This document shows, piece after piece, positions 1 through 15,414 of a DNA stretch of 25,464 nt. The number at the start of each line of letters is the position of its first letter. Within the stretch, counting starts at the first letter, position 1. The stretch is from positions 1 to 25,464 of the IMG/VR virus record IMGVR_UViG_3300042691_000479, one strand, 5' to 3'. The translations under genes were made by a program, and so were the position numbers. The stretch comes from a virus. The notes below the pieces were generated by a model. It searched no databases, was not told the origin of the DNA, and saw only the letters and a list, made by a program, of their open reading frames with translations.

Positions 1-3000
1 ATACTTTTTCAATGATTGGCTGTACGTTGGCGTAGTCTTGATCACCCTTGCGTGAGTACTGACCACTGTTGTTGTCATCACTGGTGTTCTTTGTATCTTG
101 GGCAATACGACCCATTGCTTCGGCGGCTTGCTTGTCTAAGCGCTCTGGGCTGTCTTCTGGTGTAACTTCTTTAGGCACTGCAGGAGCACTACCGTTTAGC
201 GCGGCGTCCAACTCATCCAACAATGACTCTAGTCCCAATCCTTCCAACTCTTTTGGAATGACTGTTGGACCTTTGGTTACAGGACCCTTGGGCGCTCTTG
301 GTGCGCCTTTGGTTGGACCTTTGGGTGCGCGTGGACCGCCTTTAACTTTCTCTGGCTTACCTAAATCATCAAAGATGTTGTCTAGGTCTAGGTCAGAAAG
401 TCCTCCCAGTTCACCTCCTGATCCTTCGCCGCTAACTCCGCCAGTTTGGGCTCCGCCGGCTTCGACACCGCTGGGTCCCCCTCGTTTACCTTTTCCGCTA
501 TCCGGCTGCTGTTCAGTAGTACCAGCTCCACCAGCTGTTCCTCGTCCTCCGCCAGCGGTAGTTCCAGTGCCCCGTCCTGTTTTAGGTAGTTGTTCGCCGA
601 CTCCACCGCCCTCTGTAGTCCCCACTCCTGCGCCAGTGCCTCCATCTTCCACCGCACCGCTTGTTGGTACTCCTCCGGCTGGTTGATCGGCACCGCCAGT
701 AGCTGGCTGTTTTTTTCCGGTACCCACCACGACTTGTTCGCTACGATCACTGGTTTGAACATATCTGCTCCAAAGTTCATCAAATGTAGTTATCCGATCA
801 ACTGTTGAGTCAATTGGATAAACGTTGTCCGTTTGGTTTCTGCCGGCAATAACTAAGACGCGCAACGGCCAATTCGCGCCTTGTTTACGATATAAGCCAC
901 CAGCAATTTCATAGTGATCCGCTACGTTATAGTTGCCATATAACCAGTTCAAGAACACCCGATCTGTGGATGTAATTGTTCCGGGCTTGGGGTGAGCTCC
1001 AAGGATCAAGACAGCACGGCCATCGTTAGCCATGGCGCGCAAAGACTTGGCAGCAATCGCTTGATCAAGCGTACCAATCTTATAGTTCTGGCCATTCCAA
1101 GACGGGACGTTATCAGGCGTAGACAAAGCTCCAAACGGAGGATTTGCCAAGACAACATCAACCTCTTGATCTCTTAGGTCTTTTAATTTCTCAAACGCAT
1201 CACCATCAATCACGTTACCGATTTGCATCAAACGCATGTTCTCTGCACGGTGTGGGTCTAACTCTATCGTTGTGACATTCTGTGGGTTAGCCGCCACCAC
1301 CAACATGCCGTTACCACCTGTTGGGTCTAACACTGTTGTAGTGGACTTAACACGCGCCAGCATACCTGCTAAGAAGCCAATAGGCAGCGGCGTAGAGTAG
1401 GCGTTGTTGCTCTTGCTCAGTACAGACTGAACGTCCAGCGTGGGTTGGTTCTGATACAGGTTAACGATGTATTCGTAGATGGCTTTTGTATCTGAGCCCT
1501 GCGCTCGCATGTCAGTAATGACTTGGCTGATGTAGCGTGTAGCTGCTGCCTCAAAGTCTTCCTGAGTTTGCTTAAGCTTAACACGATCACCCTCAAAGTC
1601 AGCAATCTTGTATCTTTCAATCTCACGTTGGTCTTTAGCTGGGTTAAAGCCAAGCAACTCTGGATTCTGTAAGTAAGCTTTAATGCCGTACTCAGCCAGT
1701 TCACGGTTGTTCTTTGGCCACCAGCCCTGACGCATGTGATAGAACATGGACTCAGCCATTGAGCCGTTCTTAATCTCAGGCCACTTGAACAGACCCATCT
1801 CTTCCATGATGACGTCAATACGCTTGGCCATGTCAATGATGTGCTGGTTGACCTTGCTCATCTGCATGTCAGTTGGCGTCAAGACTCGCTCTTGGCCATC
1901 ACGCGCTGCTTTAGTACGTTTGGCTTCGTCTTCAGTTTTAAACCAAACCAAACCACCAGACGTACCTGAATCCAAGTTGTATTGGTCTAGGACTGCATAA
2001 CCCAGATCTTCAATTTCGACAATCTTGGTGTCCATCTTGTAGGTCTTGACTGCCAGAGTCTCTGGGTCAATCTGAGTAAGCATCTGCTTATAAACTTCAT
2101 TGAGCTTTGGACGCTCTTTACCTAGTGGGTAAATGGTGCCGCCATAACCATTCTTTTTGGTAATGTATCCATCAGCAACCGAAGGACCCACAAGGTATGG
2201 GCTACCACCTTTAGATGCGTCAAACAGCATAGCCTCAAACGCGCGAGACAACAGCTCTACGTCTGTGCCCCAGTAACGTGGCTCTCTGCCTTCATCTTGG
2301 TCTAACTGCTGTGCGTCTTTAAAGTATTGCGTTTGCTTGTCTGAATCTCTGATAACAGGGGCTGTACCCCAGTAGCCTTGATTTGAGATGGCCGCAAAGA
2401 ATGCTTTCTTTGGAGGAAGATTGCGGTTGTCTGTGCTACCAGCTGTATCACGCAAAACACCCTTTAAGTAGTTCTCTACTGTCTCAATCTCAATCTGTTT
2501 CTTAAGACGCGAGACTGTGCCCGACATTAACAACTTGCCGTTTGGCGTTTGTTGAAGGTTCCAATCTAAACCGTGCTGCCACTCATGTCCAAGTGATCCA
2601 TCACCTTTGGTTTTGGTTAGGTTGATCTCGTTAAGCTTGGGATAGTAATGAGCTGCAGTTTTGCCGCCACGACCTTGCGCTCCGATGGCCATCTTGAGCT
2701 TCTCGCCCAAGCCCAACATCTTTGGATTGATACCAGAGACATCCGCCAAGTCATACATGGCGTCATAGATAGCGTTAAGGTGAGCAGCTCGCTCAGTCTG
2801 GTTAACCCAGTTACCAAAGTCAATACCGCCCGGGAAGAACCCAAACGTAGTTACAAAATCATTTGTATCAACGTCACGCCCTTGTCGGTGGTCACGCATA
2901 CCACGGCGAACAATGTTGCCTAACTCTGGTGGTACTTCGGTTTCTTTCTTAACAACGCGATTGGTTTGATCGGTTGAATCTTCGTTAGCACCAAACAATT

Positions 3001-6000
3001 GGAACATCTTGTTAAAGAGTGCGCTTATGTTATTGGCTTCTATCTTGTTACGTAAATCTAATCCATCTTGGGTGTACTTTGCAAACGAAGCGGAGGCGTC
3101 TGCATCTTTAATGTACTTTTCTTTTAACGCAAGATCTAAATTACCAATACGGCCATGCGCGTCAAAAATTGCCTGTAAGCCTTGGAGTGCATCAACATAA
3201 CTCTGAAGGAGCTTTTGCACTTCCTCTTGCTTACCCTCTTCCAGAGCCATCTTAATGGCTTGTCGGCCACCAGTTCTATCTGATACACGAACAGTTCTAG
3301 CTTCTTTCAAAGCTTTCAACATGTAGTCAGTCGGCGACATGATGTAACTAACGATGCCCTCTTTGTACATCATTGCGCCAAACGAATTGTCTTTGTTTGA
3401 GTCAATGTCAAGTAGCGTGTCCTTGGCAACAGCCGCCAACATCTTAGAAATCTGGCTGTCTGTAGCGTCTTTAGGAGCTGGGGGTGCTGTGACTTTACCT
3501 TTGCGGTTCTTTACAAACTCAGCACCACCACCTTGAATACTTATTTTTTCAGGCTTGTATAACGCTGATATAGTGACGCGCTCTGGGCCTGTGTAGGATG
3601 GATCATCCGTAGCAGAAGGGATAGAACGATCAGTAATGCGGAAGCCAAACTTAGTTAATGCCTCTTCAATCTTAGAAACATTTGGCAAGTCCACAGGAAT
3701 ACGCAACAGACCTTCTGCGGGGAAGATGATTGGGAAAAGGTCTTCTGCTACAGCGTTGCCGTACAGTAAAGTTGAAACCTGATCAGCATTGCCATCTTCC
3801 ATAGCAACCTTCATGGGCTGCTTGTTAAATTCCTCGAGCTTTTTCTTTTGCTCGTCAGCGGCTTTCTTCTCTTCTTCAGCTTTGGCTTTTTCTTCAGCAG
3901 CTTTAGTCTTCTCTTCTTCAGTAAGCTTTACCTTGGGTGGCTTGGGCTCTTTAGCACCACCAGTAGGGGCTTCACCAGTAGGCTCAGACGGGCCTCCAGC
4001 GGGCGCAGATGGACCGCCTGTAGGCTTGGGTTCACCTTCAGCAGGCTTCTCCTCTGCAGGCTTTACTAATTCTTCTGTAGGTATCTCTTCAGCAGGCTTT
4101 TCTTCTGCGGGTTTTTCTTCCGCTGGCGCTTCCTCGGCTGGCTGTTCAACAACATCAACGGGCTTTTCCTCTGGTGGCTTCTCTTCGACCGGTGCCTCTG
4201 GAGTCTTCTCTACAGTCCTACCCTTGGTAATCCTGTCAATCGTATTGCGAATGTTCTCAACGGCCTTTGCGTCACCATTGGCTGCAGGAGATAACCCTTC
4301 ATTAGGGTTTATACCTAGCGCCTGTGCAGTGGGCAGTTGACCCATTTGAGAACGAATGTCTCCAATGGTGGTGTTCAGCTCATCCGCAGCCGCCTTTAGT
4401 TCGGGCGAGTTATAGAAGTTGTTGATGTCTTCTTCACTGCCCTTATTGAACCAACCATCTGGGCCGTTACCAAAGTATGGATACCACTGGCCTGTAGGCA
4501 CATTCTTTTTACCGCCACTACCAGTGCTGATATAGAACGGAACCTTAACGCCGTTAACCTCTTTAACAACAACAACACGCCTGTTAGTTACGAACGGCTC
4601 TGTAACATTGTTATAGATGGCTGGCGCTTCTGGAGCTGCAGGACCGCCTGTAACTTCAGGGGCTTTACCAGTTTTCTCTTGATTAAATGCAAGGCGTTGA
4701 GTAATTCGTGAGGCTATTGCTTTTACGGAATCGGGTGAAATGCCTGACAAGTCAGAGTACTTATCAGCATTGGCCTGCAACTCTGCTGCATACTCAGCCG
4801 CTTTTTCTGGTTGATTGTCTGCAAGCCTTTCAAGGAAAGCTCCTTGCATGGCAACAGGATCTGCTTGCGTATTAACTGAAAGAGGGTTCTTTCTTTGCCT
4901 GATGTTTGAATACTCAACAGCCAGTCTTTCTGCAGAATCAATTTTTGCAACCTCATCGTTCATCAACTGATTAGATTTTTCAAAGACTTGAGGCGTAGGC
5001 TGCTTTGGCTTGACTACTACAGGCGCGGTTGGACCACCAGTTACTACAGGTGCTTCAGGAGTTTGTACAGTTGGCTCTACGGGTTTACCCTCAAGCTCAC
5101 CCATCATCTGACCTGTGTCTTGGCTTTCATCCAAAACTTGCTGAATTAACTCAGTGCTTGGTGGCTGCTCAGTAACTACTGGTTCTGCGACTGCAGTTGG
5201 CGGTGTAACTTGCACACCATCAATGTCTACACTGCCGTCCTGTCGAGTGACTTTAGTAACAGGCTTTCCATCAACATCAACTGTCATGGTGCCGACAACT
5301 GGGCTAGTGGACGGAGGAGTTGTTGGTGCTGGTGCTATACCAGCGGGAGCTCCTTCATCTGGGGGAACTCCAAGTATTTGTTTGTTCTCTGCAAGCAAGC
5401 TCTCAAGGCCGCTTGGTGCTTGGCCAGTCTTACGAAGGCTACCAATACCACCACCAAACGCACCCATGCCCACACCGGCCAACATGCCCATGGCGGATGC
5501 TTCAGCAACGCCATCCATGAGTGGCCTGTCCATGGCGTAGTTCATCCACATCTGCTCTTGCGCTGACTGTGGTAACTCTTCAAACACACCCTCAGAGATA
5601 CCAGAGCCCGTAGCTTTTAGAGCAAAGTCTCTTACTGATTTGCCAACGCCTTGCTTGGCTTGTCCGGCGGCTTGGCTTGCACCACCAGCCAACAATGTAT
5701 CAATGTCATCAAGGCCAAGCTTGTTAGCCAGCTTACCGCCAGCCGCACCAAACGCCGCTGTACCAACGCCAGAACCAACGGCAGATATAACTTGCTTACC
5801 AGACAACAACTTGTCTTTGGATTCCTGACGCATTTGCTCTGCAGCCGCGCCAGCACCAATCAAACCTTCGCCTGCGGCACCAGCTGCTACAGCGCCAATT
5901 TTAGGAGCTACCTGCAATAAGCCTCGAGCAATACCAGCACCGCCAAGCATTTGTGGTATTGACTCACCAGCTGTCGTAAAGATCGTGCTAGGGTTTTGAA

Positions 6001-6460
6001 GAGCTGCTTTAGCTGTGGGTAAGAAACCTTGGGCTTCTCTAACTTTGCGATTAGCCGCTTGTTGAGCCTCAGACAAATATGTGTCGAGAATCTCTTTGGC
6101 TTCTTTGGGTTTAAAGCCAGCCTGCTCAAGAAGCTTACCGGCATAACCCATCGTGGGTAGATCAAGCAAACCAACAGCTGCTTCGGGCAAACCAATAGCG
6201 CCCTTTAACAATGTTATACCAACGTCTTTGGCCGTACCGCCTATTGTCCTGTCGTATCCCTGCGCTTCTCTGGCCGCAACTTGAGCGCGGTACTCGTCCG
6301 CAGTCATTGTGTTTGGTGCGCGTGGAGCTATAGACTCAAGGCCGGCAGGAGCTGGAGCCGCCTGCGCTGAAAATTTACCGTATCGAGCAAGCAACTCAGC
6401 TTGCGTGATTCCCTCTGGAACACCAGTAATCGTGGTGCCATCTGGCATCAAGACGTCCAT
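1..6460 (-). CDS. Giant polyvalent-type protein with zincin and N6-adenine methyltransferase domains (3' end beyond window)
   Basis: One open frame of at least 2,153 codons, cut by the left edge. It starts at ATG 6460 behind a strong AGGGG ribosome site. Visible layout: residues 1-29 are a short motif around MPDG..I.GVPEG; about 45-345 are Ala/Gly-rich amphipathic helices; 620-700 contain a YPYFGNGPDGW segment; 760-840 are Pro/Glu repeats and 840-880 a charged helix. About 1280-1440 are zincin-like, with HEWQH at 1292-1296 and a later SRAFEA whose Glu (1409) could be the third ligand. About 1700-1850 are an N6-adenine methyltransferase, with DPTGGNG at 1712 and NPPFG at 1773. About 1920-2050 are a Gly/Thr-rich linker. 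Such mosaics are known as large polyvalent proteins, and P1 DarB pairs a methylase and a helicase in a virion protein. The gene directly follows ejection-type genes. I infer an injected antirestriction or DNA-protection role. The domain calls are firmer than the function. Confidence 0.88.
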   Translation of the reverse strand, partial: MDVLMPDGTTITGVPEGITQAELLARYGKFSAQAAPAPAGLESIAPRAPNTMTADEYRAQVAAREAQGYDRTIGGTAKDVGITLLKGAIGLPEAAVGLLDLPTMGYAGKLLEQAGFKPKEAKEILDTYLSEAQQAANRKVREAQGFLPTAKAALQNPSTIFTTAGESIPQMLGGAGIARGLLQVAPKIGAVAAGAAGEGLIGAGAAAEQMRQESKDKLLSGKQVISAVGSGVGTAAFGAAGGKLANKLGLDDIDTLLAGGASQAAGQAKQGVGKSVRDFALKATGSGISEGVFEELPQSAQEQMWMNYAMDRPLMDGVAEASAMGMLAGVGMGAFGGGIGSLRKTGQAPSGLESLLAENKQILGVPPDEGAPAGIAPAPTTPPSTSPVVGTMTVDVDGKPVTKVTRQDGSVDIDGVQVTPPTAVAEPVVTEQPPSTELIQQVLDESQDTGQMMGELEGKPVEPTVQTPEAPVVTGGPTAPVVVKPKQPTPQVFEKSNQLMNDEVAKIDSAERLAVEYSNIRQRKNPLSVNTQADPVAMQGAFLERLADNQPEKAAEYAAELQANADKYSDLSGISPDSVKAIASRITQRLAFNQEKTGKAPEVTGGPAAPEAPAIYNNVTEPFVTNRRVVVVKEVNGVKVPFYISTGSGGKKNVPTGQWYPYFGNGPDGWFNKGSEEDINNFYNSPELKAAADELNTTIGDIRSQMGQLPTAQALGINPNEGLSPAANGDAKAVENIRNTIDRITKGRTVEKTPEAPVEEKPPEEKPVDVVEQPAEEAPAEEKPAEEKPAEEIPTEELVKPAEEKPAEGEPKPTGGPSAPAGGPSEPTGEAPTGGAKEPKPPKVKLTEEEKTKAAEEKAKAEEEKKAADEQKKKLEEFNKQPMKVAMEDGNADQVSTLLYGNAVAEDLFPIIFPAEGLLRIPVDLPNVSKIEEALTKFGFRITDRSIPSATDDPSYTGPERVTISALYKPEKISIQGGGAEFVKNRKGKVTAPPAPKDATDSQISKMLAAVAKDTLLDIDSNKDNSFGAMMYKEGIVSYIMSPTDYMLKALKEARTVRVSDRTGGRQAIKMALEEGKQEEVQKLLQSYVDALQGLQAIFDAHGRIGNLDLALKEKYIKDADASASFAKYTQDGLDLRNKIEANNISALFNKMFQLFGANEDSTDQTNRVVKKETEVPPELGNIVRRGMRDHRQGRDVDTNDFVTTFGFFPGGIDFGNWVNQTERAAHLNAIYDAMYDLADVSGINPKMLGLGEKLKMAIGAQGRGGKTAAHYYPKLNEINLTKTKGDGSLGHEWQHGLDWNLQQTPNGKLLMSGTVSRLKKQIEIETVENYLKGVLRDTAGSTDNRNLPPKKAFFAAISNQGYWGTAPVIRDSDKQTQYFKDAQQLDQDEGREPRYWGTDVELLSRAFEAMLFDASKGGSPYLVGPSVADGYITKKNGYGGTIYPLGKERPKLNEVYKQMLTQIDPETLAVKTYKMDTKIVEIEDLGYAVLDQYNLDSGTSGGLVWFKTEDEAKRTKAARDGQERVLTPTDMQMSKVNQHIIDMAKRIDVIMEEMGLFKWPEIKNGSMAESMFYHMRQGWWPKNNRELAEYGIKAYLQNPELLGFNPAKDQREIERYKIADFEGDRVKLKQTQEDFEAAATRYISQVITDMRAQGSDTKAIYEYIVNLYQNQPTLDVQSVLSKSNNAYSTPLPIGFLAGMLARVKSTTTVLDPTGGNGMLVVAANPQNVTTIELDPHRAENMRLMQIGNVIDGDAFEKLKDLRDQEVDVVLANPPFGALSTPDNVPSWNGQNYKIGTLDQAIAAKSLRAMANDGRAVLILGAHPKPGTITSTDRVFLNWLYGNYNVADHYEIAGGLYRKQGANWPLRVLVIAGRNQTDNVYPIDSTVDRITTFDELWSRYVQTSDRSEQVVVGTGKKQPATGGADQPAGGVPTSGAVEDGGTGAGVGTTEGGGVGEQLPKTGRGTGTTAGGGRGTAGGAGTTEQQPDSGKGKRGGPSGVEAGGAQTGGVSGEGSGGELGGLSDLDLDNIFDDLGKPEKVKGGPRAPKGPTKGAPRAPKGPVTKGPTVIPKELEGLGLESLLDELDAALNGSAPAVPKEVTPEDSPERLDKQAAEAMGRIAQDTKNTSDDNNSGQYSRKGDQDYANVQPIIEKV
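930..1425 (-). other. N6-adenine DNA methyltransferase domain inside the giant protein
   Basis: Read on the minus strand, the sequence gives YSTPLPIGFLAG, then the SAM-binding motif I DPTGGNGML (residue 1712 on), an acidic IELDPHR beta-2 end, and the catalytic motif IV NPPFG (1773 on). Order and spacing are those of gamma-type N6-adenine methylases. No specificity subunit or endonuclease is nearby, so the likely use is protective or regulatory methylation. Any helicase partner, as in P1 DarB, would lie past the left edge. Confidence 0.85.
1900..2625 (-). other. Zincin-like metallopeptidase domain inside the giant protein
   Basis: The sequence encodes SLGHEWQHGLDW, a classical HExxH zinc site (residues 1292-1296). 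About 115 residues later comes LLSRAFEAMLFDA, whose Glu at 1409 fits the usual third ligand of a gluzincin-type site, followed by a Y-P-x-G-x-E-R-like stretch. From memory, this order (HEWxHALD, then RAFEA, then YP.G.ER) matches the LPD1/zincin modules of large polyvalent proteins. Whether it cleaves its own polypeptide, the neighbouring ejection proteins or a host target cannot be read from the sequence. Confidence 0.75.
3940..4195 (-). repeat. Pro/Glu tandem repeats (PAEEK-type) in the giant gene
   Basis: Tandem and near-tandem PAEEK/PAEE units, followed by Pro/Gly-rich PTGG and APAGG units (about residues 760-840), form a flexible, acidic inter-domain linker. A Lys/Glu-rich helix of about 40 residues follows. 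The same bases read on the plus strand give a Ser/Ala-rich open frame, which is a by-product of the repeats. Confidence 0.85.
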
Positions 6461-6466
6461 ATTTAC

Positions 6467-6472
6467 CCCTTA
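6467..6472 (-). promoter_or_regulatory. Ribosome site fused to the upstream stop codon (giant gene)
   Basis: TAAGGG lies six bases before ATG 6460. Its TAA is the stop of the 530-aa gene. It supports the chosen start and suggests termination-reinitiation coupling. Confidence 0.75.
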
Positions 6473-8062
6473 TTTTGGCAGCTGGTCGAATGGTACAGCA
6501 GTTGGCTTCACAGGGCTAGGGGGTGGCTTGGGTCCATTTAAAAATTTGTCCCAGAAACCTTGCTCAACTGGCTTCTCGGCAACAGGAGTACGTTTAACAG
6601 CTGGTGGCGGTGTAACTTTTGGCTTACCTTTTGCATCTACAGGATAGTAAGGCAAAGCAATTTCACGCATATGCTCTAAGATTTTGTAATACTCATCACT
6701 ACCAATTTCAGCATCTTGCAGTTTTTTAGCTGCAGCTTGATACGCAGGATCTCTATTAACGTTAGCTTGGATCTTAGTCAGCATCTTGTCTTCAGCTGAA
6801 GGACGGTCTTCACGGTCATACGCAGCTTTCTGAGCAGCTAAATCAGCAGTGCGTTTAGCCTGCTCATACATGCGGCCTTCATGCGTTTCTTGTGATTTGT
6901 AACGCGCTTCTTGAGCTGCTCGCTGGGCTTTTCTGTCAGCCGCATCCAAAACTTCTTTGGCGCCAGAACCTTTGAGCTCTTCAATCTTAGCTTGACGGGC
7001 GTTAACTTGATCTTTAAGTCTCATAGCCTCATCAACACGGCCTTCAGCAAACGCACGTTGCATTTGTTCAATATCCGCTTGGAGCTTCATTGTCTCAATG
7101 GTCTGAGCACGTTCCAAGGCCTGCTGTTTAGCGGCACGTTCTTCCTGTGCGGCAGTAGCGGCGTTATAAGACTTACCAAAGCCACCAAAAGCAGCTCCAA
7201 TACCTCCCCTACCCCTCTGGCCACGGGTAGCTTCACCAGCGGCAATTAAAGCGTTAGACAAAGCAGCAAGACCTTGACTACCTTCTCCCTCTTTAAACCT
7301 TGCTCGTTGAGCTAGATTTTGCTCTTCAAGCTGGGTGGCCAACTTTGCAAGAGCTTCACCGGGTAATTTATTAATAATTCCCGCAAGCTCTGGCTTTTGG
7401 GCCAAGACTTCAGCGCGCGCTTGATCTCTGCTAACTGGCTGTGGCAGATTTGATTTGCCCATCAATCGGTCAGTCAGAATTTTATTAGCCAAACCTACAG
7501 GCAATTCATCAACTCCAACAGATGCGTCTGGTGCTGCACCACCTGATGCAACGGATTCATCCGATACCGCCGCAGGAACCAAGCCTTCATCAGCAAACGC
7601 CACGATACCGCCGGGCGCGTAGTTAAAGATGTCTTTGCGAACAGGCAACTCAGCCAGTCCACCAGCGGCCATTCCGGGTGCGCCTGCGGGGATGCTACCG
7701 GGTTTAGCCATTTGCTGTGGAGGCATCTTCTGAGCCATAGGGGGCGTAGGCATCTTGGGCATCTGCGGAGCCATCTGGGGTTGTGCAGCAGGCATAGGCT
7801 GAGGCATCCCTGCTGGGTTAATCCTCATGTTCATACCTTGGCCAATACCCGGTAAACCTACTTGCTGGCTTAACTCGCTCTCAAGCTTCTCTTTAACAGA
7901 AGAGTCAGGCGCTTGAGCTGCACGTTGCTCCATGGACTTACGGCGGTTCATCTCGCCAAGAGCCATGTATGGGGGAACCTGTGGGTTCTGCCCGTTAGCA
8001 TAAGACATGATTGCCTGTGTAGGCAGATCCTTAAGGTGTTCTTGGATTTGAATCAGATTCAT
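6470..8062 (-). CDS. Probable internal virion / ejection protein, 530 aa
   Basis: The N-terminal 60 residues (LKDLPTQ, VPPYMALGEMNRRK, AQAP) match, from memory, a recurrent domain in structural proteins of aquatic podovirus-like phages. Next come a Met/Pro/Gln-rich stretch (about 75-130), a YAPGGIVAFADEG segment (about 150-160), and a long charged helical region rich in Ala, Gln, Arg and Glu (about 270-440), likely coiled coil. The C-terminus is Pro/Lys-rich. The ATG overlaps the upstream stop codon (ATGA), so translation is probably coupled. Position between other low-complexity virion-type genes and the giant gene suggests a protein carried in the capsid and ejected with DNA. No enzyme motif is visible. 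Function is inferred from context only. Confidence 0.85.
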   Translation of the reverse strand: MNLIQIQEHLKDLPTQAIMSYANGQNPQVPPYMALGEMNRRKSMEQRAAQAPDSSVKEKLESELSQQVGLPGIGQGMNMRINPAGMPQPMPAAQPQMAPQMPKMPTPPMAQKMPPQQMAKPGSIPAGAPGMAAGGLAELPVRKDIFNYAPGGIVAFADEGLVPAAVSDESVASGGAAPDASVGVDELPVGLANKILTDRLMGKSNLPQPVSRDQARAEVLAQKPELAGIINKLPGEALAKLATQLEEQNLAQRARFKEGEGSQGLAALSNALIAAGEATRGQRGRGGIGAAFGGFGKSYNAATAAQEERAAKQQALERAQTIETMKLQADIEQMQRAFAEGRVDEAMRLKDQVNARQAKIEELKGSGAKEVLDAADRKAQRAAQEARYKSQETHEGRMYEQAKRTADLAAQKAAYDREDRPSAEDKMLTKIQANVNRDPAYQAAAKKLQDAEIGSDEYYKILEHMREIALPYYPVDAKGKPKVTPPPAVKRTPVAEKPVEQGFWDKFLNGPKPPPSPVKPTAVPFDQLPK

Positions 8063-9129
8063 GATGATGATCCAGTAGTAAGTCCGAGGCCTTTTAATAA
8101 CTCAGTAACATCTTTGTAGCCAAACGCTTTGGCCGCAGCAGCTCCGCCACCTAAAGCCGACAGCAAGGTTCCAATCCCAGACATTTCACCGGCTTTGTTT
8201 GTGACCGAGCCAGTAGGCAAACCAGAGATCATGTCACGCTGGAACTGCACTTGTTGGAACGGATACTGGCGTTGCTTTTCAAATTCTTCCTTATCAGCAG
8301 AGATGCCCTCAGACTCAATGCCGCGCTCAATGCCGCCTTGCGTAGACATGAGGTTAGCCAGATCTTTAGCCTGACCTTGCTCCGCATTAAACTGAGCCAT
8401 GGCCTTGTCGTAGGCGCTTGCGTATCCTTGGCCAACAGTCTTATTCTGTTCTTGCATTAAATTACGATAGTTCTCTGCGTTCATAATGGCTTGACGGCCA
8501 CCACCAAACGCACCGGCCTGAGTCATCTTGGCATTTGTAGCCGCATTGGTAATTTCATTTTGACGGCGCAGCTCATCCAACTGTGGGGTTAGCACATTCT
8601 GCAAGTACGGGTTCATGTACGACTGAGCAATGTTGCTAGGCTGCTGAGATGTTTGGGGCGGCGTCAAACCTGCAATACCTGCGGGTGCTGTACCAGTGTT
8701 ATAGCCGGTGGGCAGTGACATATCGCTTTTAGTGTAATCACTACCAATACCCAAATTACCCATTATGTTGGAAACAGAACCATCACCTTGTGCGGGCATT
8801 AAAGGCCCACCAAAGTCATTGCCTGTGTAGGCCACACCGGGGCCAGCAGAAACTGGGCCACCACCTTGCTGAGGCATTACCGCAGGCTGACCACCCATAG
8901 GGGAAGCAAAGCTTTGACCTAAGTTGGACGGGAACGTAAGCCCAGCCAGACCGCTGAACACTTTGTTCTGTAGGTTAGATGCGCCAGCTGTCAGTGGTCC
9001 TTGATAGACCTGATATGGTGTCTCAGATAAAGCTTGTGCTTTACCAAGATAGTTTGTGATGTACGGCGAAGCCCAATCGGCTAGGCCTTGGGTATTTGTC
9101 GATCCAGACGGTAGAGTTTCTCCAGCCAT
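8059..9129 (-). CDS. Probable internal virion / DNA ejection protein, 356 aa
   Basis: The central part carries SYMNPYLQNVL (about residues 168-178), then a helical stretch containing QAGAFGGGRQAIMNAE and a YDKAMAQF segment. This order is frequent, in my recollection, in uncharacterised virion proteins encoded next to podovirus tail and ejection genes. The N-terminal half is rich in Gly, Pro and Gln. The C-terminus has an Ala/Gly-rich hydrophobic segment (LLSALGGGAAAAKAFGY) that could interact with membrane. Start ATG 9129 follows a TAAGGA ribosome site that contains the previous gene's stop codon. A role in DNA ejection is inferred from neighbours and composition; no catalytic residues can be named. 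Confidence 0.86.
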   Translation of the reverse strand: MAGETLPSGSTNTQGLADWASPYITNYLGKAQALSETPYQVYQGPLTAGASNLQNKVFSGLAGLTFPSNLGQSFASPMGGQPAVMPQQGGGPVSAGPGVAYTGNDFGGPLMPAQGDGSVSNIMGNLGIGSDYTKSDMSLPTGYNTGTAPAGIAGLTPPQTSQQPSNIAQSYMNPYLQNVLTPQLDELRRQNEITNAATNAKMTQAGAFGGGRQAIMNAENYRNLMQEQNKTVGQGYASAYDKAMAQFNAEQGQAKDLANLMSTQGGIERGIESEGISADKEEFEKQRQYPFQQVQFQRDMISGLPTGSVTNKAGEMSGIGTLLSALGGGAAAAKAFGYKDVTELLKGLGLTTGSSS

Positions 9130-9135
9130 ATCAGC

Positions 9136-9141
9136 TCCTTA
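9136..9141 (-). promoter_or_regulatory. Ribosome site fused to the upstream stop codon (356-aa gene)
   Basis: TAAGGA lies six bases before ATG 9129. Its TAA ends the 553-aa gene. Confidence 0.75.
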
Positions 9142-10800
9142 AGCGGGTAAATACTTGTGCGCTTTTGTATCAGCAGCAACATTTTTAGTTTTGCGGCGCG
9201 CCTTTTGGACGCGATCCATCATGGCGTAAAGCTTCTGAGCGCCTGCTTCTGTAGAGCCGTTGCCTAGTTCGGAAACAACTCTTGCTGGTACGACAAACTC
9301 GCCTGTGGCCAAGCGGGCCGGTTGTTTACCACCGATTGTCGCAGGAATTGAGTCAGACACGCCGTCACCGGGGCCTTTGAGTAAGCGGCCACCATCTGAG
9401 TAACTACCCAAATCAGAGATGCCACCACCGCCGTACATCATTCCACCTCCTGCAGCCTTTGGCGTGTAGGTTGTTGGTGAGAAGTAATTAACGCCACCAG
9501 CTCCGGGACGAGCTTTTGTGCCAGACGTTGGTCCGTAAGGTAATTGCTTGCGATCAGCCGACAACGAGGGGATAACAGCGCCAGAACCTTTAGAGTCACC
9601 GCCGCCCTTATTCATCATGGCCATAAGAGCCAACAACATCATCAACATATTGTTGTCTTTTTTATCGGCAGCAGCCGCTTTAGCGCCTTGGTTTGCCTTG
9701 GTATTGTCAATCGTTTTTGTTTCACGAATGATCTTATCAACGCCATCTTTATTGGTGGTGATAGTTTTGGTACCGTCAATAGTATTGGTAACAACCTTGT
9801 ATGTGCCATCTTTGTTATCAATGATGGTGCGACCGGGCGATACAACAGACTGCTGGCCTGTAATGGTTGGGTTATTGATGAAAGACTTCGGATCACCAAT
9901 TGAATACATTGATCCTAGTGGATTGGCTTTACTGCTCTGAGCCAAGAAGCCTGTTTCGCTTAATGTCCCACCAGTGCCTTTGAATGGGGTCAAGCCTGCT
10001 TTATCGTACTGAGAGTCAAGGTACTTCTCAATCTCAGGGAATGCGCCGGGGTTGTTCTTAACCAAACTGGTTAAAGCACTCTCACTGTACTCAGCCGGAA
10101 TGTACTTGCTTAAGCCTTGTCCACCGCCCATTTGCTCAAGGCCCATGCCGCGCGTTGAATCTCCAGACAAGCCCTGACCGTCTTTTGTTTCAAGGCCAGA
10201 TCTCAAACCATAGTCAACCGTTTCTGGTGAATAACGGGCAATTTCTTCTGCCGTACCAGAGCCTAGCAAGTCTTTAAGACTGTTAAATCCCTCGCCCGTA
10301 ATGCCTGTTGCACCAGTGACTGGATCAAACATCGAAAGCTGGCCACGACCCGTAGACTTAAGACCAGTGCCGCCAGTTGTATCTTTTTCAAGATCAGCAA
10401 GGCTAATTCTTTTTGAGCCAAGACTACGGCTTAAAGATTCTCCATCCCCTGAATCTGTTAACTTTGATAAATCAAACGCGCCTTCGCCAGCATCCAGTCC
10501 TGTAGTGTCTATACCAAGGCTTTCACCAAAGTCACCTGCAATTTTGCTAAAGTCAATTTCTCTGCCGTCACCACCGCCCAGCAAACTAGAGATGTCAAAG
10601 GCCTCTGGGCCCATATCTAAACCAGATAAATCTATTCCGCCACCATCGCCACCAAGCAGGCTTGAAATGTCAAAAGCTTCTGGGCCTAAATCCATGCCAG
10701 ACAAATCAATTCCAGATGAACCGCTGTCTCCACCAAGCAAACTTGAAATATCAAAGGCACCTTCGCCAGCGTCTAAACTGCCAAAATCAAATTCTTCCAT
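9139..10800 (-). CDS. Repeat-bearing virion-type protein with conserved C-terminal module, 553 aa
   Basis: The N-terminus (residues 12-116) is four diverged copies of a unit around AFDISSLLGG followed by IDLSG. The middle is polar and Thr/Gly-rich. Residues about 383-398 are a very Met/Leu-rich hydrophobic run (MLMMLLALMAMMN), perhaps a membrane-inserting helix. The C-terminal about 100 residues contain GPGDGVSDSIPA, GEFVVPARVVSELGNG and AQKLYAMMDRVQ; I recall this module from many structural proteins of aquatic phages, with no assigned function. The tail is basic. The ATG at 10800 has AAGGGG six bases upstream. The gene sits inside the ejection-type block, so a capsid-internal role is the best guess. 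Confidence 0.86.
   Translation of the reverse strand: MEEFDFGSLDAGEGAFDISSLLGGDSGSSGIDLSGMDLGPEAFDISSLLGGDGGGIDLSGLDMGPEAFDISSLLGGGDGREIDFSKIAGDFGESLGIDTTGLDAGEGAFDLSKLTDSGDGESLSRSLGSKRISLADLEKDTTGGTGLKSTGRGQLSMFDPVTGATGITGEGFNSLKDLLGSGTAEEIARYSPETVDYGLRSGLETKDGQGLSGDSTRGMGLEQMGGGQGLSKYIPAEYSESALTSLVKNNPGAFPEIEKYLDSQYDKAGLTPFKGTGGTLSETGFLAQSSKANPLGSMYSIGDPKSFINNPTITGQQSVVSPGRTIIDNKDGTYKVVTNTIDGTKTITTNKDGVDKIIRETKTIDNTKANQGAKAAAADKKDNNMLMMLLALMAMMNKGGGDSKGSGAVIPSLSADRKQLPYGPTSGTKARPGAGGVNYFSPTTYTPKAAGGGMMYGGGGISDLGSYSDGGRLLKGPGDGVSDSIPATIGGKQPARLATGEFVVPARVVSELGNGSTEAGAQKLYAMMDRVQKARRKTKNVAADTKAHKYLPA
10453..10767 (-). repeat. Four in-frame repeats (AFDISSLLGG...IDLSG) at the start of the 553-aa gene
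   Basis: Units start near residues 12, 39, 64 and 105. The first three are 25-40 residues long with nearly identical cores; the fourth is degenerate (AFDLSKL). The nucleotide copies are diverged at silent positions, so this is not a recent duplication. The Asp/Gly-rich tails of each unit resemble short linear binding motifs joined by flexible spacers. Confidence 0.9.
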
Positions 10801-10803
10801 GGC

Positions 10804-13224
10804 TTACCCCTTTTCTTTAGCGGTGGTCTTAGATGGACTCATCGCGTTTTGCATAATCGTATTCATAATTGACTTTTGTAAGTCTATTGGTTTATCTTGT
10901 AATAGGCTTGACAAAAGCTGTCCACTTACCCCTGTAAACATCTTCTGCATATCAGGCGTCAGTGTATCGGGCATAGCACTGTTAATCAAGCTGCTTGTAG
11001 CCATATTTGTGCCGGTATTTAACAGTGAAGACAAGCCAGCTTCGCCTATATCTTTTTTGTTAATTGCCGCACCTATCGTAGACGTAGCAAGGTTTGGAAG
11101 CGCTTTGGTTAAGTACTGATCTGCAAAGGCATTGCCAGTATCAATCGTTGGCATATAGTTTTGAGCAAGCACATTTGTTCCAGCGCCAGCAGCTCCAGTC
11201 AAGAAGCCCTTGCCAAACTTACCGCCACCCATTTCGGCCATAGCTCCGTTTATAAGGCCAGAACTAACAACTTTTGCCGCAGTTGCGCCCAAAGCCGGGG
11301 TTAAAGCACCAGCCGCAAGAGATCCAAGACCGCTTGTAGCAAACGCAATTGCAAGCTGGCCAATAGGGCCAAGATCCGCTACGTCTTTAATTAAATTCTT
11401 ACCAAATCCAACCGTTTCTACACGTTGCTCTGGCTTGGCTTTTCCATCAGCGTCCCAAACACCAGTAACACCAACCCTGTGCTGTGGCCACACTTTGTCT
11501 TCAGGCCTGCCACGGTAGCCGGTTAGAGTGCCGTTTGCATCGTATTGAGCATCAACAATCACACCAGCTGCAGTCTTGATTGGTTTTGTGTAACCAGACA
11601 ATTGCTGGGTTTGGTCTTCACCACTACCAGTGGTAGTGTAGACGGGCTCTAAGCCCTTGGTGTCTTTAACCTGACCCGGCAGTGTGTAAGTCTGGGTCTG
11701 GCCTTCACTGTCCGTATAGGTCTTAGTCTCTGGCTTGCCAACTTCAAGTTGCTTAGGAACATCGCCAAGAGTCTTTTGATCAAGGCCAATGAATGTCTGG
11801 AACATATGGGGCTGGAGTTTGCCGCCAAACTTTTCGTCAGCAATACGCTGTGACATCTTGGCCACTTTATCAATAGCATCAGCTTGAGCGCCATACTTTT
11901 CACGCAAAGCTGGGTCTGCATTAACAGCAGCCACAAAGTCTGTGTAGCCTTTGGTCAGATCTTCGGGCGTACCATTACCAGCCATAGAGTCACGCAAACC
12001 AAGAATTGGAACTGCTTTCTGAACTTTATCAAGGGCTAGGCCGTATAAACCCTTAAGTCTTGGATCTTTATTAGCGTTATCAACAAATGCTTGAAGATCT
12101 TTGGCTGACTTTGTGGGGTCAGATGTAAGGGTCTGAAGATCTGCTCCAAAGTTTTTTACAGGCGCAAGGTAGGCAGTTACGTCTTTACCAGTGATATTAC
12201 CGCCCAAAGCTTTGGCAATCTGGTCATCCGTAATACTGTACTTTTGTTGAAGCGCAAGAGCTCCCTTGGTTTTATCTAAGTCACTAACAGTAGGAGCTGA
12301 TAGACCCTTAACAATGCTGGCCAGACCTGTGTCAAAGGCCGTAAACATCTGATCTACGCCCTTCTTATTCAAGCCTGAGTACTGAGCAATTTCGCTGGAA
12401 TCTAGGCCGTACTTATTGGCGGCCTGATTGATTGCGGCCACTCTATCAAAATCAGACTTGGTCTTATCGTTTAATGTGTTGGTAATGTAATCTTTAATGC
12501 CGGTGCCGTAATCTTTTAAATACGGGTCTACAACATCCTTGCCATACATGGCCGTCAGATCGCCTTGGCTAATGCCTGCTTTCTGGGCGGCTTCCATGAT
12601 CTTATTGGTTCGCTCAAAAGGCGAAAGGCTGGCATCACCCATAACACCAGACACATAGTCGCGAATCTGAGTTGTGGTAAATGGCGTAACTGTGCCGTAC
12701 TTGGTTTCTTCTGGCGCTACCGGTGGTAGGTTGTTGTAGCTTAATGGTGTGCCTACAGGGGGAATTGGAGGAGGCGGTGTAACAGGCGGTAACGTTTGGG
12801 CCTGTGGAGTTAACGATGCAATACCGCCAGAAACACCAGCGCCCATAGAACCCGGTGGCGGGGTACGAACTTCATCTTGTGCAAACTCTTGTAGGGCAGG
12901 AGGTTGGTAAGTTAGCTCTTGAGGCGGTAAATTGGCTGGAGGTTGAACATCTACAGCCTGCTGTGGCTGTGGTAATGTTTGACCAAAATTAATGCCGGCA
13001 TTACTAAAGTAGTTACTAACAGTGTTAGCGTCATATCCAGTTGCCTGCGACAGCTGCTCTGGCGATACGCCGTATTGTTGAGCTGCATCAGCAATAGCTT
13101 GTGGATTGCCTATATTTGCTTGAACATAAGCATTAATATCGGCATTTGAAAATGCTGGTGTAGCTGGTGCCGTATTTTCAAATACGTCTTCACCAAACTG
13201 TTGCGAAAAATAATCAATGGCCAT
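10804..13224 (-). CDS. Large helical-repeat virion-type protein, 806 aa, probable ejection protein
   Basis: A helical repeat of about 50-58 residues appears at 27-77, 184-238, 241-298 and 299-356. Its pattern is I..YV, then I..AA.KYG(V/L), then a D/EQL..ATG-like turn, then V..Y. Copy one is separated from the rest by a Pro/Gln-rich linker (82-175). Residues about 605-690 are Ala/Gly-rich and hydrophobic (GPIGQLAIAFATSGLGSLAAG), suggesting membrane association. I recall this repeat from other aquatic phage proteins but know no function. The gene starts one base after the previous stop, with AAGG upstream. Length, repeats and hydrophobic tail fit an ejected internal protein that could help form a conduit across the envelope; this is inference. 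Confidence 0.87.
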   Translation of the reverse strand: MAIDYFSQQFGEDVFENTAPATPAFSNADINAYVQANIGNPQAIADAAQQYGVSPEQLSQATGYDANTVSNYFSNAGINFGQTLPQPQQAVDVQPPANLPPQELTYQPPALQEFAQDEVRTPPPGSMGAGVSGGIASLTPQAQTLPPVTPPPPIPPVGTPLSYNNLPPVAPEETKYGTVTPFTTTQIRDYVSGVMGDASLSPFERTNKIMEAAQKAGISQGDLTAMYGKDVVDPYLKDYGTGIKDYITNTLNDKTKSDFDRVAAINQAANKYGLDSSEIAQYSGLNKKGVDQMFTAFDTGLASIVKGLSAPTVSDLDKTKGALALQQKYSITDDQIAKALGGNITGKDVTAYLAPVKNFGADLQTLTSDPTKSAKDLQAFVDNANKDPRLKGLYGLALDKVQKAVPILGLRDSMAGNGTPEDLTKGYTDFVAAVNADPALREKYGAQADAIDKVAKMSQRIADEKFGGKLQPHMFQTFIGLDQKTLGDVPKQLEVGKPETKTYTDSEGQTQTYTLPGQVKDTKGLEPVYTTTGSGEDQTQQLSGYTKPIKTAAGVIVDAQYDANGTLTGYRGRPEDKVWPQHRVGVTGVWDADGKAKPEQRVETVGFGKNLIKDVADLGPIGQLAIAFATSGLGSLAAGALTPALGATAAKVVSSGLINGAMAEMGGGKFGKGFLTGAAGAGTNVLAQNYMPTIDTGNAFADQYLTKALPNLATSTIGAAINKKDIGEAGLSSLLNTGTNMATSSLINSAMPDTLTPDMQKMFTGVSGQLLSSLLQDKPIDLQKSIMNTIMQNAMSPSKTTAKEKG

Positions 13225-13225
13225 A

Positions 13226-13474
13226 TTAAACCTTAATCTTTAAACGATTGTCGGCGGTGTCTCGGTACACTTCGCCCACACGCAAATTAGCCAAGTCAGC
13301 TTGTGTTGGCAAAGTATCAATGTTGATATTTAACTGCGCAATATTGATTGGCTGAATAGCGTTTAAACGTTGAAAGAATAAGTTCAACACATTCAACATC
13401 TGGCCCATGTAGGCAGCGTCATACTCTGGCGGTGGAGCCGGTAAGCGCGGTGGAGCATCCTGCATAAAACTCAT
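13226..13474 (-). CDS. Small conserved phage protein, 82 aa
   Basis: The sequence has a Pro-rich N-terminus, a helical YMGQMLNVLNLFFQRLNAI segment, and a C-terminal TLPTQADLANLRVGEVYRD motif ending in a short beta-like LKIKV. From memory, this small protein often sits next to the gp10-like tail gene in aquatic phages. It overlaps that gene's stop by ATGA and has AAGGGG upstream. It is probably a minor tail or neck component; there is no direct evidence for a function. Confidence 0.85.
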   Translation of the reverse strand: MSFMQDAPPRLPAPPPEYDAAYMGQMLNVLNLFFQRLNAIQPINIAQLNINIDTLPTQADLANLRVGEVYRDTADNRLKIKV

Positions 13475-15405
13475 GAGTTACCCCTTCTGCCGTCTGTCTT
13501 AATGTCAATACGAGGTGCACCCAACTGCCAAGTAGTGCCGACTTGGGTGGACTCCATTTGGAATATCAACTGTCTACCACGAACGCGAATGTAGACTTGA
13601 CCCGTAAACTCCTCAATTGGAGCTGTTGCAATACGCTGAATAGATGCGTTGCTTGTCCCTGCGGTTGAGCGTGGATCAGTTGCGCCTGAACCTGAGTTCT
13701 CAAACGGAATCAACGTCATCGTACACTGAGGCGTTCCGCTGGTAGAACCACGAAAAGTCAAGTCAGGCAGGACGCGCCAGATAAAACCAAAGTTGTGGCC
13801 GTCATCAATGTCAAACTCAGAGGAGCTAATCAAGGCTGGGATAGCTGTAGTTGTGGCTGTAGAGTTATCGTCCACGCCAAGCTCATGATTAACCAGATTA
13901 TTAATGTACGTTGCACCCAAAGGATAGTTGCGTAAACCTGAATCAAGCCACGCAGATCGTGCCATTGTGCCGTAGTACCAGATGTCTTCAAGGTAGTTGT
14001 AGATCACGTACTTGTCCACGGTGTTACTACCAGCAGAACAATAGAACCACCAAGCTTCGTTAAAACCTTCGTTAGTTCCCGCAAATATTTGGGCTGCTTG
14101 CGTCAAATCAATGTCGCTAAAAATGTACTGGCGCAGGTCGCAGCGCAAAGTTTGAACACGGCCATCGTATTTGTAAAACTTGTCTACGCCCATCCAATAA
14201 ACCACGCCAGAAGCCAGACAGACTGCGTTCGGGCCAATGATTGATACGTTGTCACCTAGCAACTGAGAAGCCCAAACCACGGGCGGCCCTACATACTGAA
14301 GCGAATAAAGGGCAGAGTCTGTAAACACTACTATCTCTTGACGGGCTTGAATGGCGGTAACAATCTCAGAGCCGTGAGACAACTGTAAGCTACCCGCTTG
14401 GTTTGTAGGTGCAGGTGTCCAAACAAGAAAGTCTTCTTGATCTGACCAACGAATTAACAGAGGGTTTAAGGTGGATGAACTGTAGTCATCGCAACCAAAA
14501 GCAAACACAAACCGGCTTGCGTCAGATACAAATGTAGACAAAACAACCGAAGGTACATCTGCGTCTGCGCCCATAATGCTAGACACTAAAACGCCACGAG
14601 TGTTTAAACCATTTGTTTGATCCCAATAGTACAAACCACCGCCACGGGGGGCAAAGATTAAGTCTTCGCCAAAGTTGGATTGGCTCCATAGACGAAGGGA
14701 AGATGTAGAAGATCCACCTGTACCCCAGAGGCCAGCACCCCAAGCGCCAGCGCCCCAGCCTGTAAGTGGAACTGCGTATTCAGGGCCAACATTAAGTTGA
14801 TAGGCAGCCACAACAGAAGCCCCGCCGCCGGGAGAACCTGCAATAGCCGTAGCGTTTGGCGTGACTGAAATTGTGATTGTGTACGAGTTAGCGTTAATTA
14901 CAGTGACTTGAAACTCTTGATTGAGAACAGCAGCCGTGACGTTGGTTCCGCCCCCGCCAATAGTTGTTGCTCCGCTAAAAGTTACAAAGTCCCCCGTCAC
15001 GCAACCATGAGCCGTATCTGTGACCGTGACTGTGGTGGATGCTGTCAGCGCAAACGGGTTGTTATTGATGGTAGGTGCAGGAACTACACGCAGGGGCGTG
15101 ATGTCGTTGTATGACCCACCGGATTCAATGTAAAACTTTAAGTTAGTGCCTACACCTACTAGGTTGGCTCCGGTCAGTGTGACCCAATTCCATAGTGAGC
15201 GGCACACACCTTCGTAGGTTTCATCGGATATGCGAACCCAGCCACCAATCTTTTCAGGGGTTCCTGAACGGAAACGCACCTTCTCAGACTCATACCAACC
15301 GCCCGCTACGTTTGTGCCAGAATTGACAGACCCCAAAGCCTCGGATGCGTACCGTGTATTTTCGCGGTTAACCCCCGGACGAAATAGAATCTTTTTTAAC
15401 GGCAT
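13471..15405 (-). CDS. P22 gp10-like tail hub / packaged-DNA stabilisation protein, 644 aa
   Basis: The N-terminus (RPGVNRENTRYASE, GGWYESEKVRFRSGTPEKIGGW, SLWNWVTLTG, LVGVGTNLKFYIE) and the later QEIVVFTDSALYSLQYVG, VYWMGVDKFYKYDG and RCDLRQYIFSDI segments are the pattern I associate with P22 gp10-type tail accessory proteins, which plug the portal after packaging and connect to the tail needle and spikes. I chose ATG 15405 rather than the TTG two codons upstream because AAAGG is correctly spaced for the ATG. The previous gene's TAA lies inside that ribosome site. Length is within the range I would expect for gp10-like proteins of aquatic podoviruses. The many short beta-strand repeats fit a propeller-like hub. 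Confidence 0.88.
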   Translation of the reverse strand: MPLKKILFRPGVNRENTRYASEALGSVNSGTNVAGGWYESEKVRFRSGTPEKIGGWVRISDETYEGVCRSLWNWVTLTGANLVGVGTNLKFYIESGGSYNDITPLRVVPAPTINNNPFALTASTTVTVTDTAHGCVTGDFVTFSGATTIGGGGTNVTAAVLNQEFQVTVINANSYTITISVTPNATAIAGSPGGGASVVAAYQLNVGPEYAVPLTGWGAGAWGAGLWGTGGSSTSSLRLWSQSNFGEDLIFAPRGGGLYYWDQTNGLNTRGVLVSSIMGADADVPSVVLSTFVSDASRFVFAFGCDDYSSSTLNPLLIRWSDQEDFLVWTPAPTNQAGSLQLSHGSEIVTAIQARQEIVVFTDSALYSLQYVGPPVVWASQLLGDNVSIIGPNAVCLASGVVYWMGVDKFYKYDGRVQTLRCDLRQYIFSDIDLTQAAQIFAGTNEGFNEAWWFYCSAGSNTVDKYVIYNYLEDIWYYGTMARSAWLDSGLRNYPLGATYINNLVNHELGVDDNSTATTTAIPALISSSEFDIDDGHNFGFIWRVLPDLTFRGSTSGTPQCTMTLIPFENSGSGATDPRSTAGTSNASIQRIATAPIEEFTGQVYIRVRGRQLIFQMESTQVGTTWQLGAPRIDIKTDGRRGNS

Positions 15406-15414
15406 TAGCAACCT

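Follow-up and report, generated by a model that had tools for sequence, protein, structure and literature searches.

The way in which stub-tailed phages package and deliver proteins several hundred kilodaltons in size is still an open question, studied mainly on phage N4. In the N-terminal domain (NTD) of the N4 virion RNA polymerase (vRNAP), membrane-spanning helices are predicted at residues 224-278 and the isolated domain enters nanodiscs; it has been proposed to form an inner-membrane complex with gp51, the remainder of the protein refolding in the cytoplasm (PMC12633501). Earlier searches with the N-terminal region of this polymerase recovered only N4-type polymerases (PMC5512222). Phage P1 ejects DarB and its partners along with its DNA; they relieve type I restriction, and DarB protects against EcoB and EcoK (PMC12810830). 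Among the methylase-helicases of the polyvalent proteins, for which dyad Iyer et al. proposed a translocate-and-methylate mechanism, rare Strawberry-notch types have been noted (PMC5512222).

The window, a viral DNA fragment of 25,464 bases, holds at its edge a giant gene whose frame (2-6460, minus strand) is uninterrupted over 2,153 codons from an ATG start until it runs off the contig. The start lies 9 bases past the upstream gene, with AAGGGG as a plausible ribosome site. An earlier note on this DNA had described a single gene of at least 2,153 codons joining an Ala/Gly-rich N-terminus, an acidic linker, an HExxH motif and an N6-adenine methylase, and all of these were found in frame, Ala and Gly making up 33% of residues 1-350. 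The gene and the parts of its product are as follows.

2..6460, minus strand: giant polyvalent protein gene, N-terminal 2153 codons; the 3' end is cut by the contig edge
5501..6307, minus strand: N module (aa 52-320), all-helical by prediction and Ala/Gly-rich, with homology to the N4-type vRNAP NTD by profile comparison; proposed packaging/ejection/inner-membrane domain
4217..4609, minus strand: conserved segment (aa 618-748) within a variable linker, also present in L007, L035 and L036
4025..4213, minus strand: acidic Glu/Pro repeat linker (aa 750-812)
2876..3829, minus strand: uncharacterised domain (aa 878-1195) restricted to the core family, modelled with moderate confidence
2036..2878, minus strand: zincin-like metallopeptidase (aa 1195-1475), a CLCA_X part and LPD1
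2573-2587, minus strand: HEWQH zincin motif (aa 1292-1296)
2234-2251, minus strand: LSRAFE, with Glu1409 as candidate third zincin ligand
689..1555, minus strand: N6-adenine DNA methylase domain (aa 1636-1924)
1307-1327, minus strand: methylase motif I, DPTGGNG (aa 1712)
1133-1144, minus strand: methylase motif IV, NPPF (aa 1773)
281..688, minus strand: Gly-rich linker (aa 1925-2060), after which the helicase follows beyond the contig edge

Related loci extend the gene past the window. L001 holds a complete gene of 4,561 amino acids that matches the window at 88-94% over most of its length, and L002, which is 99.7% identical to window bases 1-6020, runs on past the window edge. Most complete relatives measure 4.5-4.7 thousand amino acids, and a full length of roughly 4,560 residues is estimated for the window protein. 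The earlier note had suggested looking for a helicase in the same frame; a Strawberry-notch helicase is present there in L002 and in the relatives of 4.5-4.7 thousand residues, and the window protein can very safely be presumed to continue into it as well. The giant frame is not a product of chance since, over the zincin-methylase region, 18 related loci retain it at 70-99% identity. In L002 a short deletion with a frameshift (9404-9468), either real or an assembly error, splits the giant frame just after the helicase.

The order in full-length relatives is N module, acidic linker, HExxH zincin (CLCA_X/LPD1), N6-adenine methylase, Strawberry-notch SF2 helicase, second zincin and C-terminal LPD38 module. 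Pfam scans of the window protein gave LPD1 above the cut-off and N6_Mtase below it; the methylase was further matched by PADLOC mad2 (E 3e-12) and PHROG 3820 (E 3e-10). The full-length relatives gave LPD1, the Strawberry-notch models AAA_34 and Helicase_C_4, and LPD38; no polymerase family appeared in these scans, its place being occupied by the methylase-helicase. The same frame in the relatives contains a Walker A motif (GDDTGVGK), DEAH, LGRIHRTGQ and a second HExxH motif (LAHEAIGH). HExxH, DPTGGNG, Walker A, DEAH and LGRIHRTGQ are kept in every locus that covers them, and among 19 aligned sequences HExxH, the glutamate of LSRxFE and motif I are invariant, NPPF being retained by 18. In L021 (12434-14674) and its near-duplicate L031, HPPA stands in place of NPPF with motif I, HExxH and the helicase motifs intact. 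Judged by its motifs, the L021-type giant is a natural methylase-dead version, and methylation would therefore not be indispensable in that lineage.

The domain at aa 878-1195, although strongly conserved in the core family, matched nothing in Pfam, PHROG or the PDB. PDB sequence searches with the window protein and a full-length relative returned nothing useful, a single weak match (E 0.008) being judged due to chance. No fold is claimed for the zincin region because its AlphaFold pLDDT is below 50 over most of its length; matches of this model to the PDB were not significant. A genome scan with the zincin-methylase alignment matched no bacterial genome.

Upstream of the giant, on the same strand, lie the following genes.

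6470..8062, minus strand: 530-aa gene immediately before the giant, kept in 25 related loci and a candidate for an ejection protein
8059..9129, minus strand: 356-aa gene, homologue of the gene (294 aa) that fills this slot in DSL-LC04
9139..10800, minus strand: 553-aa gene, its C-terminus homologous to a DSL-LC04 protein annotated as tail tape measure
10804..13224, minus strand: 806-aa gene, a candidate for an ejection protein, whose product has a hydrophobic Gly/Ala stretch near aa 618-653
13471..15411, minus strand: P22 gp10-like stabilization/tail protein, which marks the podovirus virion block

Three of the genes at 6470-13224 are kept in 25-32 related loci. Two of them, together with the P22 gp10-like gene, match genes of podovirus DSL-LC04 in preserved order, and the stabilization protein is related to its counterparts in DSL-LC04 and Pelagibacter phage HTVC023P. 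The last slot in DSL-LC04 holds a 1,068-aa 'DNA transfer protein'. The 806-aa gene matched nothing in phage records and its relatives are confined to a few loci, so the slot is variable. Comparison of the upstream genes with N4 gp51/gp52 and with the P22 ejection proteins gave no match. The description of these four genes as virion-type thus stands by position and by synteny with DSL-LC04, but not by annotation, as none of them has a PHROG function of its own. In the relatives the giant ends its strand run and is followed mostly by convergent small genes. This order indicates a late virion block rather than a replication region, and bears out the view that the giant occupies the final position of a podovirus ejection block. 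Elsewhere in the window (20883-23216) a tail-fibre-like protein with PHROG tail fibre matches has a C-terminus (SDIKFKENV...) that looks like an intramolecular chaperone.

Residues 122-590 of the giant matched the PHROG family 'virion RNA polymerase'. This match was examined by running a profile of the N module, built from 135 sequences, against the N-terminal regions of ten Schitoviridae vRNAPs in hhalign. The two profiles aligned with a probability of 97.4 (E 1.3e-11, score 92) over about residues 113-435 of N4. A reversed profile gave 0.3%, 60 column shuffles scored at most 21.9, and unrelated ORF families from the same loci scored 23 at best, one family (vRNAP NTD 94%) having been left out of this null as it consists of giants of the same core and was counted as a true relative. 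A compositional artefact is thereby ruled out for the part of the match that covers the N4 NTD. Taken singly, the N modules of the window type (93.6%), H66 (95.3%) and Y7 (89.4%) each aligned with the N4 NTD; P1 DarB gave 0.2%. Homology to P22 gp7/gp20/gp16, P1 DarB and the DSL-LC04 'DNA transfer protein' was rejected by comparison.

The different N-terminus of the L009-type giants also aligned with the N4 NTD (96%, hhalign). An HMM of the vRNAP N-terminus run against 1,674 ORFs ranked N4 first, followed by the N-termini of methylase-helicase giants (E 1e-10 to 1e-7), namely those in L009, L010, L013, L014, L019 and L020, which belong to this other N-terminal type. Two N-terminal types on this core are therefore N4-like; the types in L006, L007, L012 and L016 have no detectable similarity to the N4 NTD. 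The N module is, on this profile evidence, homologous to the N-terminal domain of the N4-type vRNAP, and the resemblance to ejected proteins proposed in the earlier note turns out to be kinship with an injected one. Structure prediction builds the module entirely of helices, at moderate confidence (pLDDT 71). The model matched nothing in the PDB and had three matches below 0.001 in BFVD, one annotated RelA/SpoT, which were used as support only. Because the helices are just weakly hydrophobic by plain hydropathy, membrane insertion of the module is something that we infer.

A cultured relative bears on packaging. The record of H66_0060 of Pseudomonas phage H66 describes a protein of 3,787 amino acids, similar to methyltransferases, which was verified in the virion by mass spectrometry; virion mass spectrometry of a relative, a check proposed for this giant, has in effect been carried out, in a phage without this helicase. 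The N module of H66_0060 was found with an HMM E-value of 1e-102, the profile training set having included this protein, and shows 42.5% identity by BLAST. Against the window core, its methylase (hhalign 96%) and its second-zincin segment (91%) were matched in the same order, and its gene lies at the end of the virion block, ahead of holin and endolysin. Neither a helicase of Strawberry-notch type (hhalign) nor an LPD1 zincin was detected in H66. Since H66 has the chassis and the methylase without the helicase, its virion record backs the chassis more than the exact window protein. The phiC725A paper (PMC5217972) treats the same protein as structural and likens it to internal virion protein D of phiRIO-1 and also to the C-terminal portion of N4 gp50. 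Homology, position and the H66 record together give strong support to packaging: the window giant is probably carried in the virion and fired into the bacterium with the DNA.

The N module is shared widely. A survey found it in 136 ORFs, mostly in viral contigs and Pseudomonadota genomes; it was N-terminal (within 150 residues) in 125 of 132, and the median complete length was 2,956 residues. The payloads behind it include ADP-ribosyltransferase (two), C5 methylase and LPD39, as well as RadC, InPase, PBECR3 nuclease, SLT transglycosylase, ddrB-ParB, MuF-C and LPD3/22/37. The giants in L026, L029 and L037 have the N and LPD38 C modules of the window family around an ADP-ribosyltransferase or C5 methylase, and the methylase-helicase core was found with six N-terminal and two C-terminal groups. 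Shared ends with other middles, and the same core with other ends, imply that ends and middle have been swapped independently. Stx-converting phages occur among the search matches, at the level of such matches. In Pseudoalteromonas phage Y7 (L039 3-14153) one protein of 4.7 thousand residues joins N module, ddrB-ParB, Eco57I methylase, SF2 helicase, second-zincin segment and ADP-ribosyltransferase, a single chain that approaches several of the P1 Dar functions.

The giant is best explained as the third and largest ejection protein of a podovirus of roughly 60 kb, combining an N4-type delivery domain with an injected methylase-translocase that would shield the entering DNA from restriction; we put the probability of this reading at about two in three. 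The protein would be synthesised late, loaded into the procapsid with the other ejection proteins and ejected through the tail as unfolded, loosely linked beads. After passage through the tail the N module would lodge at the inner membrane, and zincin, methylase and translocase would refold in the cytoplasm. The adenine methylase and Strawberry-notch translocase would then methylate the phage DNA during entry and so guard it from restriction, probably of a type I-like kind, as P1 DarB does. Cleavage of the polypeptide, either already in the capsid or once inside the cell, would probably be the task of the zincin domains and would free the enzyme domains. Synthesis, loading and ejection are supported by homology and by the H66 record; the later steps, with membrane anchoring and self-processing by the zincins, we infer. 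An antirestriction role of the window giant is likely.

Transcription pulls the genome into the cell in T7 and N4. The giant holds the slot and the delivery domain of the N4 vRNAP, itself a genome-entry helper, and the L021 type has kept its helicase intact although methylase motif IV is lost; both would suit an ejected motor whose translocase mainly pulls the genome in from a membrane-anchored N module, methylation being secondary. Such a role is unlikely, as the methylase is intact in 18 of 19 sequences, plasmid relatives of the methylase-Strawberry-notch dyad occur without podovirus delivery of this kind, and chassis relatives with ART, RadC or InPase payloads enter without a helicase. It is quite unlikely that methylation serves instead to evade another defence (BREX, DISARM-like or methylation-dependent) or to mark self DNA and exclude rival phages: the top match of the methylase in the defence library is indeed mad2 of the MADS system (E 3e-12), and several defence systems share the general chemistry of a methylase paired with an SF2 helicase, but the mad2 match covers the domain only, and DarB, the nearest tested analogue, counters type I restriction.

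Very improbable is an unpackaged intracellular enzyme, late or early, for replication or packaging. Sequence inspection places recombination-type genes just past the giant in the relatives, as such an enzyme might lead one to expect, but these are mostly on the other strand and the giant closes the virion block; the N4-NTD homology and the detection of the H66 giant in virions also speak against it. The injected methylase-translocase remains the preferred reading, although the helicase from outside DarB's family, the HPPA of L021, the four N-terminal types that show no N4-NTD similarity and the failure to detect this kind of helicase in H66 weigh against it. A wider proposal, possible though somewhat more doubtful than not, is that the N4 vRNAP NTD represents one form of an ejection chassis widespread among podoviruses (N module, often with the LPD38 C-terminal module), which packs giants in the virion and fixes them to the inner membrane, its payloads being freely exchanged; here a methylase-translocase would be held at the point of DNA entry, and the genome scanned and methylated while threading in.

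Of these results the most valuable is the link that joins the N-terminus of this giant to the ejection domain of N4 and to many other phage giants; what is new is the connection of the N4 vRNAP N-terminal region with the N module that many polyvalent proteins carry. Should dozens of different enzymes in other podoviruses prove to be delivered by the N4 domain, a packaging/ejection signal could be tested by domain swaps, and searching genomes with the N4-type delivery domain should uncover injected effectors not recognised before. As for the payload, it would add a second, independent case of a methylase-translocase carried in the virion, this one from a podovirus and with a helicase family unlike that of P1 DarB.

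Compared with described systems, the polyvalent proteins (Iyer et al. 2017, PMC5512222) are likewise giant, encoded beside virion genes and endowed with LPD1, LPD38, zincins and an adenine methylase fused to a SWI2/SNF2-clade ATPase. The window family has disparate domains in one chain (zincin, nucleic-acid enzyme, LPDs) and its gene adjoins virion/packaging genes. The parallel with multidomain polyvalent proteins holds, LPD1, methylase, Strawberry-notch helicase, LPD38 and two HExxH segments lying in one chain. The idea that zincin plus methylase make a distinct DarB-like system is not supported in that form, as the combination already occurs in the published class (PMC5512222) and the helicase is Strawberry-notch, against the SNF2-related one of DarB. 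The same dyad of methylase and Strawberry-notch helicase is rare in phage records (3) but was found on 548 plasmids, 251 of them predicted conjugative; that phages and conjugative plasmids both use it agrees with a role in protecting DNA on its way into a new cell. The plasmid proteins are about 28-32% identical and lack the phage N module and podovirus context.

The N4 vRNAP gp50 (Schitoviridae) shares a homologous NTD, its place as last gene of the ejection operon and a beads-on-a-string build, and differs in its payload, a single-subunit RNA polymerase in place of the methylase-helicase; no relation of the C module to the N4 vRNAP C-terminal domain was detected by hhalign. H66 gp60 and the F116-like giants (Hollowayvirus) have an N module 43% identical, followed in unchanged order by a methylase and a second-zincin segment related to those here, and a place at the end of the virion block; H66 gp60 differs in its length of 3787 residues and in carrying LPD23 and LPD3. 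P1 DarB resembles the window giant in an adenine methylase followed by an SF2 ATPase and in presumed virion-borne protection of DNA. The window-family methylase matches DarB 89-224 (hhalign probability 88, E 3e-6) and belongs to the EcoKI/TaqI-type N6-adenine methylases; the helicases gave 2.8% with hhalign, Strawberry-notch Pfam models being found here versus SNF2-rel_dom in DarB. LPD36, listed by the Pfam scans neither for P0002 nor for DarB itself, has no power to discriminate. DarB is without N module, zincin and LPD38, is 2255 residues long against about 4560 here, and takes another route, through a myovirus capsid and in dependence on DarA/Hdf. The window giant is thus a new variation within the known polyvalent proteins, one that would work like P1 DarB and yet, by its helicase, is placed outside the DarB family.
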